Positions 31,071 to 33,922 of a stretch of DNA of 36,532 bases are shown here, one piece after another. Below the pieces are notes generated by a model. That model searched no databases, was not told the DNA's origin, and worked only from the letters and a program-made list of their open reading frames with translations. Within the stretch, counting starts at the first letter, position 1. Every line of letters begins with the position of its first letter. Source of the DNA: Myxococcus sp. (GTDB taxonomy: Bacteria; Myxococcota; Myxococcia; Myxococcales; Myxococcaceae); NCBI GenBank assembly GCA_014879945.1, contig JACSRE010000410.1:1-36532 (forward strand), given 5' to 3'. The position numbers were made by a program, and so were the translations under genes.

Positions 31071-31801
31071 GCGCGCTCGAGCTCCGGGAGCATCGCGTTG
31101 GCCTCTTCGAGCAGCGCGGCGACCGCGTCATGCGCCTGCTGCGTCAGCGCCTCGCGGGCCTCGACGCCCAGGCCCTTCGTCTCGAGCGGCTTGCCGATGA
31201 CGAGCGCCGCCGGCTTGGGGCGAATCGCGATGGTGCCCTTGGGGAGGATGGCCCAGGTGCCGGCGAGCGCAGCGGGCACCAGCGGCACCTGCGCCTCGAG
31301 CGCCATGATGGCCGCCCCCTTCTTGAAGGGCTTGAGCACGCCGTCGTCGCTGCGCGTGCCCTCGGCGAAGAAGACGACGCTCACCCGGTCACGCACCTGC
31401 GCGGCCGCTTCCTTCAGGCGCTGCTTGTCGGTCTCTCCGCCGGAGCGATCGACGAAGACGTTGCCGGCGCGCTCGAGCGCGTAGCCGAACACCGGCACCC
31501 GGCGCAGCTGCTGCTTGGCCACGAAGCGCATGTGCCGGCGGATGTGGCGGAACAGCACCATCGCGTCGAAGTTCGACTGGTGGTTCACCGCCAGCACGAA
31601 GTTGCCCGGCGGCAGGTTCTCGAGGCCGCGACAGGCCGTGCGCACCCCCGAGATTCGCAGGGTCGAGTCGGCCCACACCTGGAGCACCGGGTCAGGCGCC
31701 CGCTCGTCGAGGAAGGTGAGCGCGCTCACCGCCGCCGAGGCCGTTCCCGTCAGCCCCACCACGCCGACGCCAGACACCAGGGTCCTCAAGAGCTCTTTCA
31801 A
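31067..31801 (-). CDS. plsC: 1-acyl-sn-glycerol-3-phosphate acyltransferase (PlsC/LPLAT family)
   Basis: The acyltransferase block I is AVNHQSNFD (His74, Asp79) and block III is FAEGTRSDD. Block II-like RVPVFGYALERAGNVFVDR and the late VPLVPAALAGT complete the family pattern. The enzyme would acylate lysophosphatidic acid at the membrane. A TTG start at 31801 gives 244 residues, normal for PlsC, with AAAGGA 6 bases upstream. Longer readings run antisense through the neighbouring secreted-protein gene and are rejected. The upstream region is a degenerate copy of the epmA 3' end, whose stop TGA overlaps this TTG. The arginase-family gene follows with a GTGA overlap. Confidence 0.88.
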   Translation of the reverse strand: MKELLRTLVSGVGVVGLTGTASAAVSALTFLDERAPDPVLQVWADSTLRISGVRTACRGLENLPPGNFVLAVNHQSNFDAMVLFRHIRRHMRFVAKQQLRRVPVFGYALERAGNVFVDRSGGETDKQRLKEAAAQVRDRVSVVFFAEGTRSDDGVLKPFKKGAAIMALEAQVPLVPAALAGTWAILPKGTIAIRPKPAALVIGKPLETKGLGVEAREALTQQAHDAVAALLEEANAMLPELERA

Positions 31802-31910
31802 ACGAAGTCCTTTGCCGGGGAGCGCCGCACGTGGGCAATCTGCGTCACTTCCAGCATCAGCATCAACACCCGATCGACGCCCCGGCGATTCCGCCAGACG
31901 GGGCGCGACC
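31798..31910 (-). pseudogene. Degenerate copy of the 3' end of epmA
   Basis: Read on the minus strand from the stop back, this stretch encodes GVDRVLMLML-x2-TQIA-x-V-x3-PA-x-DFV-stop, 20 of 27 residues identical to the end of the intact epmA at 32930. By hand, 71 of the last 84 bases match (31798-31881 against 32930-33013). Just before this, PSGGIA is in another frame because one base is missing, so the copy is broken. Further 5' the similarity fades. It has no start and cannot make an enzyme. Its stop TGA overlaps the TTG start of plsC, which may explain why it persists. Confidence 0.85.
31808..31813 (-). promoter_or_regulatory. Shine-Dalgarno AAAGGA for the TTG start of plsC
   Basis: AAAGGA lies 6 bases before TTG 31801 on the minus strand. 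It sits inside the epmA-like remnant, where intact epmA reads GACGGA, so the remnant has a better match to the ribosome than its parent. Confidence 0.65.
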
Positions 31911-31985
31911 GCGACGGGACACGCTGGGGTGTGCACTCGAGAGCTCAGTAGACGGGTCCCGGTCCGCCAACACAGGATGCGCGCC

Positions 31986-32846
31986 ATGAAGAAGCTGCCC
32001 CTGCTGCTGTGCGCTCTGTCGGTGGTCGCCAACGCCCACATCACCCTGCGTTCCCCCCGCCCGCGCACCGCCGCGCAGAAAGACGGCCCCTGCGGCGCGC
32101 TCAACAGCACCCGCGGCAGCGACGCCGGCGTCACCACCTACACCGCTGGCGATACCATCACGGTCACCTGGGACGAGACGGTGGAGCACCCCGGCTACTT
32201 CCGCATCGCGTTCGACGACAACGGCCAGGACTTCGCGAACCCCACCTCGCCCGGGTCGGATGCCGGCGTGATCCTCGTGGTCGATCAGATCCCCGGGCGG
32301 AACGTCACCGACGCTGGCCGTGGGTACACCCAACAGGTCACCCTGCCCAATACGCCCTGCACCAACTGCACGCTCCAGCTGATCCAGGTGATGACCAACC
32401 GCACCACGATCACCGAGCCCGACCTCTACTTCCAGTGCGCCGACCTCGTGCTGCTCCCGCGCGGCGGTGGCACCGGCGGCGGCGCGGCAGGCGGGACCGG
32501 CGGAGGCATGGTCGGTACGGGCGGAGGCATGGTCGGTACGGGCGGAGGCATGGTCGGTACGGGCGGAGGCATGGTCGGCACGGGCGGAGGCATGGCTGGC
32601 ACGGGCGGAGGCATCGCTGGCACGGGCGGCGGCATCGCCGGCACGGGCGGCGGCACCTCGGGCACGGGTGGCGGCGCCGGCGGAGGCACCCTGGCGACGG
32701 GCGGCTCCAACGGCAGCACCGCCGGCGGTAACGGCGCGGCGGGTGGCGGCGCTGAGCAGGCTCCAGTCGGCTGCTCGTCGCTGGGGGCGCCAACCGTCGC
32801 CTCGCTGCTCGGCCTGCTCCTGCTCACCCTGCGTCGCAGAAGCTGA
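31986..32846 (+). CDS. Secreted polysaccharide-monooxygenase-like protein with Gly-rich stalk and MYXO-CTERM-like tail
   Basis: ATG 31986 (AGGA at 31974-31977) encodes a signal peptide MKKLPLLLCALSVVANA, with predicted cleavage leaving His18 as the first mature residue (HITLRSPRPR). An exposed N-terminal His is the hallmark of copper 'histidine-brace' LPMOs. A second candidate His is His68 in TVEHPGYFRIAFD. The domain (about 18-160) also has paired cysteines (CTNC). It resembles the myxobacterial LPMO-like group I know as SCE4755-type. A Thr/Gly-rich repeat stalk follows, then GCSSLGAPTVASLLGLLLLTLRRRS, a MYXO-CTERM-like sorting tail. It may oxidise or bind a glycan at the cell surface. A further in-frame ATG at 31977 is less likely. 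Confidence 0.82.
   Translation: MKKLPLLLCALSVVANAHITLRSPRPRTAAQKDGPCGALNSTRGSDAGVTTYTAGDTITVTWDETVEHPGYFRIAFDDNGQDFANPTSPGSDAGVILVVDQIPGRNVTDAGRGYTQQVTLPNTPCTNCTLQLIQVMTNRTTITEPDLYFQCADLVLLPRGGGTGGGAAGGTGGGMVGTGGGMVGTGGGMVGTGGGMVGTGGGMAGTGGGIAGTGGGIAGTGGGTSGTGGGAGGGTLATGGSNGSTAGGNGAAGGGAEQAPVGCSSLGAPTVASLLGLLLLTLRRRS
32508..32675 (+). repeat. Eight tandem 21-bp repeats (7-residue MVGTGGG-type)
   Basis: The units read MVGTGGG four times, then MAG, IAG, IAG and TSG versions of the same heptad. The first four are almost identical in DNA (32508-32591). They encode the flexible stalk of the secreted LPMO-like protein. In-frame gain or loss would change stalk length without breaking the reading frame. 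Confidence 0.9.
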
Positions 32847-32929
32847 GGCTGCGCGGGGCTGCCTCGTCGGGGAACGCGTGGCCGGCTTCGCTCGGAGCGC
32901 TCAACGCTGCCAGCCGCGAGCGGCCTCGT

Positions 32930-33922
32930 TCACACGAAGTCCGTCGCCGGGAAGAGCAGCACGTCTGCAATCTGCGTCGCGCCCAGCATCAACATCAACA
33001 CCCGGTCGACGCCCACCGCGATGCCCCCCGACGGCGGCATGCGCCCCACGGCCTCGAGAAACCGCTCGTCCAGCTCGAACACCGGGCGCCCGAGGCCGCG
33101 GCGCAGCTCCTGCTCTTCGACGAGGCGCTTGCGCTGCTCCACCGCGTCGGTCAGCTCCGAGAAGCCGTTCGCCAGCTCGAGGCCCTGCGCGTACAGCTCC
33201 ACCCGCTCGGCGACGGCCGGGTCTCCTTCCTTCAGCTTCGCCAGCGACGCCATCGACGCCGGGTACTCGAGGAGGAAGGTGGGCCGCTCGTGCCCCAGCT
33301 TGCGCTCCACCCGCTCGAGGAAGACGTGGAAGAAGACGTCGTCGAAGCCGGTCGAGGTGCCGGTGTAGATGCCCCGCGCGTCTGCGGCGCGCTTGAGCGA
33401 GGGCCCATCGGCGTGCGCGCGCAGATCGATCTCGGCGTAGCGAAGGAGCGCGTCGTGCACGCTGAGCCGCTCGAACGGCGTCTTCGTGAAGCAGCCGCGT
33501 GACGGCGCGACGGCCTGCTCCGCGGCGCTCAAGGCGCGCTCGAGGTCGCTCATGATGGCGGCGTAGTCGGCGTGGGGCCGGTAGAACTCGAGCATCGTGA
33601 ACTCGGGGTTGTGGTGCCCCGACACCTCGCCGTTTCGAAACGTCTTGCAGAGCTGGAAGAGCGGCGGGCACCCCGGGTCGGCGAGCAGCCGCTTCATCGC
33701 GTACTCGGGGCTGGTGTGCAGGAAGAGCGAGCGCCTGCGGCCGACCTCGGTCTGGGGAATGAAGGGCACCTCGAAGGGGTCGATGTGCGGCTCGAGGCCC
33801 GGCGTCGCGATGAGGCACGGCGTCTCGACCTCGAGGTAGCCCTCGCCACCGAAGAAGGTCCGGAGCGCCCCGTACATCGTCTGGCGGGCGCGGGCAGCGG
33901 CCCATTGAGCGGGACTGGGCAT
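32930..33922 (-). CDS. epmA: EF-P--(R)-beta-lysine ligase (EpmA/GenX/PoxA), lysyl-tRNA synthetase paralogue
   Basis: EpmA attaches beta-lysine to elongation factor P. The 330-residue protein (E. coli 325) has only the class II catalytic core, with no N-terminal tRNA-anticodon-binding domain. Visible are YLEVETPCL, LHTSPEYAMKRLLA, motif 2 FRNGEVSGHHNPEFTMLE followed by YRPHADY, ELANGFSEL, and motif 3 GIAVGVDRVLMLMLG. ATG 33922 is chosen because AAGGAG lies 6 bases upstream (33929-33934); the longer reading has a non-family N-terminus. The gene converges with the LPMO-like gene (83-base gap). A broken copy of its 3' end lies about 1.1 kb downstream, next to plsC. Confidence 0.93.
   Translation of the reverse strand: MPSPAQWAAARARQTMYGALRTFFGGEGYLEVETPCLIATPGLEPHIDPFEVPFIPQTEVGRRRSLFLHTSPEYAMKRLLADPGCPPLFQLCKTFRNGEVSGHHNPEFTMLEFYRPHADYAAIMSDLERALSAAEQAVAPSRGCFTKTPFERLSVHDALLRYAEIDLRAHADGPSLKRAADARGIYTGTSTGFDDVFFHVFLERVERKLGHERPTFLLEYPASMASLAKLKEGDPAVAERVELYAQGLELANGFSELTDAVEQRKRLVEEQELRRGLGRPVFELDERFLEAVGRMPPSGGIAVGVDRVLMLMLGATQIADVLLFPATDFV

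Follow-up and report, generated by a model that had tools for sequence, protein, structure and literature searches.

Duplicated copies of an ancestral epmA-plsC junction flank an inserted LPMO-like gene in a Myxococcus genome and appear to divide its coding and ribosome-binding roles

In one Myxococcus sp. genome the genes epmA and plsC, which overlap in all six congeners compared, are separated by an opposite-strand gene for a secreted LPMO-like protein, and a copy of their junction is found on each side of that gene. The locus lies in the window, by which we mean the whole stretch of 36,532 nucleotides that was analyzed (contig JACSRE010000410.1, assembly GCA_014879945.1). Genes that overlap are generally considered difficult to pull apart, since the same stretch of DNA does two jobs. 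Here, an insertion with duplication of the overlap, followed by a split of the coding and ribosome-binding roles between the copies, is the explanation that we consider probable. The divided pattern is shown, at the level of predicted signals, by the comparison with congeners; selection would be its cause. The features of the locus are collected in Table 1.

Table 1. Features of the remodeled locus (positions in the window).
Feature	Position	Strand	Remarks
Arginase-family gene, now adjoining plsC	29967..31070	-	PF00491, 153.5 bits
GTGA overlap, plsC stop/arginase start	31067..31070	-	Probably derived here by loss of intervening DNA
plsC-type 1-acylglycerol-3-phosphate acyltransferase gene	31067..31801	-	TIGR00530, 110.8 bits (cut-off 102.95); PF01553, 98.9 bits
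Remnant (displaced epmA 3' end and plsC start)	31793..31901	-	Two 1-base deletions; DVLLF -> HVRRS; no 5' part
TTGA, plsC TTG start overlapping the remnant TGA	31798..31801	-	Ancestral form GTGA
AAAGGA, putative ancestral plsC Shine-Dalgarno site	31808..31813	-	Retained by the remnant, 6 nt from the start codon; position and spacing as in congeners
Secreted SCE4755-family LPMO-like gene	31986..32846 (in-frame ATG also at 31977)	+	NF043005, PF03067
Live junction copy	32925..33034	-	Last ~105 epmA bases, stop and ~5 bases matching the ancestral plsC start (GTGTGAACGAG)
epmA (EF-P lysine aminoacylase EpmA/GenX), intact, 330 aa	32930..33922	-	NCBIfam TIGR00462
GACGGA, putative degraded former Shine-Dalgarno site in epmA	32940..32945	-	Live copy; AAAGGA or CAAGGA in relatives

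The search for EpmA covered sixty genomes, counting the window's own, and gene neighborhoods were read in 40 relatives. Each of the six other genomes in the genus has epmA joined directly to plsC, with nothing between, by a 4-base same-strand stop/start overlap of the GTGA/ATGA type, GTGA in every case, and the identical overlap is present in three other genera of the family (G007, G024 and G027). No LPMO-like gene adjoins epmA in the neighborhoods of the 40 relatives or in the homologue searches. Since the congeners keep epmA and plsC adjacent and none has the LPMO-like gene there, the separation seen in the window is derived. The original prediction, made from this DNA alone, had proposed both that the two genes were ancestrally adjacent with overlapping stop and start and that entry of the LPMO-like gene split them, the end of epmA being duplicated. 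Both are borne out by the gene order of relatives, and the split with flanking copies is found in this genome only. The ancestral overlap had been given as TTGA; the congeners have GTGA, and TTGA is derived in this genome. On the other side of epmA, about 1.3 kb lies before the next divergent gene in G005 and G006 (L040 8205-9505 and L042 8819-10150), and less than 0.1 kb in the window.

The EpmA product matches profile TIGR00462 with 351.5 bits (cut-off 286.9) along residues 11-324, essentially its full length, and shares 83-88% amino acid identity with all congeners. In the gene tree the window copy falls inside the genus, closest to G002/G004, compatible with vertical descent. A foreign origin of the whole gene was ruled out by this placement together with a sliding identity comparison that has no recombination break. 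The plsC product is 79-91% identical to those of the congeners starting at its first codon, and it would be made from the TTG at 31799-31801.

When positions 31780-31985 were searched against the whole 7.7 Mb genome, an 83% match was found between 31793-31901 and 32925-33034 over about 110 bases in the same orientation (E = 1.2e-24; next match, E = 0.016), and the junction occurs in these two copies only. A repeat scan of the window paired 31793-31882 with 32925-33014 (84% over 90 bases), consistent with the 71 of 84 bases first counted between 31798-31881 and 32930-33013, and detected no further dispersed repeats of this kind in the window. Elsewhere, an apparent coding region at 9530-10265 contains degenerate tandem repeats with units of about 93 bases. 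The junction repeat was absent from the six congeners. As first read, both copies close with GAC TTC GT(G/T) TGA (DFV-stop), and the remnant's TGA (31798-31800) overlaps the plsC TTG, both on the minus strand. The remnant has the predicted frameshift, one base being absent after GGIA, and lacks its 5' part; comparison with relatives revealed a second missing base further upstream. Because of these two single-base losses and several missense changes, it cannot encode the EpmA end. The similarity between the copies ends near 31901-31905 and, in the other direction, runs about 5 bases beyond the epmA stop into plsC (31793/32925). The sequence 3' of the live epmA stop, TGAACGAG, is identical to the plsC start of G004/G002 before diverging, which suggests that the duplicated unit was probably the junction including the plsC start, about 110-116 bases.

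Integrative elements typically leave a gene's 3' end directly repeated on both sides of a non-orthologous gene. The layout would thus fit a decayed element that targeted and restored the epmA 3' end, leaving attL/attR-like repeats and one cargo gene. We nevertheless hold this origin to be very improbable: the roughly 1.1 kb between the copies has room only for the LPMO-like gene and carries no integrase or other mobile-element gene, visual inspection of the region downstream of epmA in eight genomes from other genera revealed no integrase, and the repeat, found once in the genome, is just 83% identical. Hardly more credible is an assembly chimera, in which the contig would misjoin an epmA-LPMO end and a plsC end broken inside epmA. 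Although the draft consists of 448 contigs and the arrangement is seen in one genome only, the frameshifts and missense changes of the remnant are unlike the functional epmA end of another strain, the genome contains no second epmA end or junction, and both flanks follow the gene order of the genus.

Given an insertion with duplication of the junction, the congeners indicate what each copy kept. The terminal epmA sequence of the relatives is GC(A/C)AAGGACTTCGTGTGA, and the congeners' epmA end reads GCAAAGGACTTCGTGTGA (GCC in one). AAGGA is present there in 6/6 relatives and the longer AAAGGA in 5/6, with CAAGGA otherwise. The remnant reads GCAAAGGACTTCGTTTGA and the live copy GCGACGGACTTCGTGTGA; where the remnant retains GAAGTG and GCAAAGGAC, the live copy has GGCGCG and GCGACGGAC. 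In overall identity, too, the remnant resembles the congeners at least as closely as the live end does. Since relatives and remnant carry AAAGGA, it is the live end that changed, from GCAAAGGAC to GCGACGGAC, losing the site. The earlier reading, in which GACGGA had become AAAGGA in the remnant, is therefore reversed. The predicted duplex with the anti-Shine-Dalgarno sequence, calculated with an assumed 16S tail sequence, is -6.2 kcal/mol for the remnant, -5.2 to -6.5 kcal/mol for the congeners and -3.5 kcal/mol for the live copy. Codon usage was also informative. GCA is rare among alanine codons in the window genes counted (6/295, about 2%), and the GCA at the junction is the sole GCA codon of the whole epmA gene in G004, G002, G005 and G003, as expected if it is kept for the Shine-Dalgarno site. 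The chance of GCA in three or more of the four lineages is 3e-5, a guide only, as it assumes independence and ignores shared ancestry. Across the genus, all third positions are invariant in the final four codons of epmA, compared with 42% gene-wide.

The divergence of the two copies bears on whether the remnant is being kept or is simply decaying. In the latter case, the insertion and duplication would be real and plsC would use a leftover site without selection, or start elsewhere. The number of private changes is similar in both copies, eight each by the same counting rule (two deletions included in the remnant), as such decay would predict. On the other hand, none of the remnant's changes falls within AAAGGA or the spacer, and the start codon was altered only to another start (GTG -> TTG). 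We therefore judge decay alone unlikely. The proposal that the remnant survives because it initiates plsC is plausible: the retention of AAAGGA, spacing and start codon agrees with it, and persistence for the sake of the plsC ribosome-binding site is a plausible reading of that retention. We infer that selection maintained AAAGGA; because the split state exists in one genome only, a single event does not prove selection.

The origin of the duplication was considered separately. Incoming DNA with an epmA 3' end and the LPMO-like gene may have recombined at epmA by homology and illegitimately at its other end, so that the live end would be the donor's and the remnant the resident's. Homology-facilitated illegitimate recombination gives such a layout and, in Vibrio T6SS loci, has been proposed to leave immunity genes and 3' ends displaced (PMC5361080); of the two copies, the live end deviates more. 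Its identity is 85-87% to G004/G002 and 81% to G006, compared with 87-88% and 85% for the remnant, and its last 105 bases hold eight lineage-specific changes versus 3.7 expected, a count that 8% of the windows along the gene reach. A foreign origin of the live end could be the cause of this slight excess. Against this, no searched genome has an LPMO-like gene adjoining epmA (unsampled donors are possible), live epmA falls inside the genus with G002/G004 as its best match, and live copy and remnant share a CTG codon seen in no congener. Of seven placements of the remnant tested on the tree of epmA, six were not rejected, 105 bases being too few, and the window lineage, G004/G002, G005 and G006 were not told apart as its position. 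Donor DNA is thus a possible but doubtful source, and it would alter the mechanism of the duplication but not the division of roles.

The inserted gene encodes a protein of the SCE4755 family (NF043005, 144.8 bits; cut-off 75) that also scores above the cut-off for Pfam LPMO_10 (PF03067, 26.3 bits; cut-off 23). A putative signal peptide ending in ANA is followed by a putative mature N-terminal His (HITL), a Gly-rich repeat tail, and then a C-terminal Cys, a hydrophobic stretch and an Arg tail. The product is polysaccharide monooxygenase-like by family; copper-dependent activity is putative, the N-terminal His alone being visible. Its score is that of the SCE4755 family, from which it differs by the long Gly-rich tail and, relative to the congeners' members, by its position. 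The Gly-rich region corresponds to a 21-base tandem repeat at 32471-32700 (GTGGGMV-type units). The Cys-hydrophobic-Arg ending resembles a myxobacterial cell-surface sorting tail, and the profile searches reported no separate match for the tail. The nearest homologues, 51-57% identical over the core, are in three congeners at other loci, and a donor search up to the phylum gave best matches of 51-57% identity, with a homologue of about 52% in another family; one contig scan gave a 33% relative only. In the tree the window copy has no supported sister (support 0.086). Transfer from a genus-wide locus was rejected: the congeners' copies, 63-80% identical among themselves, are only about 48-57% identical to the window copy and do not group with it. 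Their loci share no neighbor genes in the stretches compared, which in some cases stop at the gene itself.

The other side of plsC was remodeled as well. In all six congeners, 1.3-3.7 kb separates plsC from an ATG-started arginase gene and contains an opposite-strand LpxL-like and/or LigD-like gene. These names are given from sequence resemblance without a profile search. An LpxL-like acyltransferase gene occupies the interval in G001, G003 and outgroups, a LigD-like gene in G004, G005 and G002, and both in G006. The LigD-like (polymerase/ligase) gene is located at L039 4288-6186, L040 4778-6493, L041 5581-7243 and L042 3356-7107. Gene turnover between plsC and arginase appears to be repeated, with the genes lying on the opposite strand wherever they were read. 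Because intervening genes are present in all congeners, an ancestral epmA-plsC-arginase operon, as originally envisaged, is not supported. The GTGA overlap of plsC and arginase is found in this genome only; plsC takes its stop codon in the window from the TGA within ATGACG, the ancestral arginase start. For the LpxL-like and LigD-like genes, this draft genome contains only distant homologues elsewhere (35% and 38%), so that they look lost rather than moved; no repeats were found at the LigD/LpxL site of relatives. The new overlap represents a second, deletion-type remodeling of the locus.

Taken together, these observations suggest the following course of events. The ancestor would have had translationally overlapping epmA and plsC (GTGA), with the plsC Shine-Dalgarno site inside the last epmA codons (GCA AAG GAC). 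A stretch of about 1 kb with the opposite-strand LPMO-like gene would have entered the junction in this lineage, and about 110 bases (some 105 of epmA plus the plsC start) came to flank it on both sides, as the comparison shows. The upstream copy still encodes the EpmA end but no longer carries the predicted ribosome-binding site, and frameshifts and missense changes have removed the coding capacity of the downstream copy, which retains AAAGGA, its spacing and a plsC start codon. DNA between plsC and arginase would have been lost separately. Transcription of plsC-arginase may start from a new promoter in 31802-31985 or come from read-through antisense to the LPMO-like gene; a scan that is insensitive in GC-rich myxobacteria detected neither a sigma-70-like promoter nor a terminator. 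The locus can be read as an experiment of nature: set against six congeners, it shows which changes each copy accepted once it had a single job. We tentatively propose that duplication of the junction is what allowed the insertion and that tightly overlapping operons may in general admit new genes by such duplication followed by division. If so, only insertions that copy the junction would preserve the protein end of the upstream gene as well as the ribosome-binding site of the downstream one, and their later signature would be a coding copy without a Shine-Dalgarno site and a non-coding copy with one. This locus offers that signature in a concrete, testable form.

A limited literature search, which is not proof of absence, found no case of a duplicated overlap dividing coding and ribosome-binding roles. 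Several known systems share parts of the arrangement. As in homology-facilitated illegitimate recombination (PMC5361080; PMC3240628), including the insertions proposed in T6SS loci to displace 3' ends (PMC5361080), a new gene has entered and the old 3' end lies displaced on its far side; unlike those cases, this is not a toxin-immunity locus, the insert is on the opposite strand and no epmA-LPMO donor was found. As in disrupted overlapping genes of Salmonella (PMC3843671), an ancestral overlap of co-directed genes was lost; duplication and Shine-Dalgarno sites, which mark the present case, have 0 occurrences in that text. Shine-Dalgarno sites inside the upstream gene are general for closely spaced genes (PMC2784483), and the ancestral plsC site inside epmA would be of this kind. 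Overlapping ATGA/GTGA stop/start pairs are established as coupled by termination and reinitiation (PMC6728339). A 4-base overlap of this kind joined epmA and plsC ancestrally and now joins plsC and arginase; epmA-plsC would be a pair of the coupled type, with putative reinitiation. Unlike in such pairs, the epmA-plsC overlap was apparently copied and pulled apart, leaving a non-coding copy before plsC.
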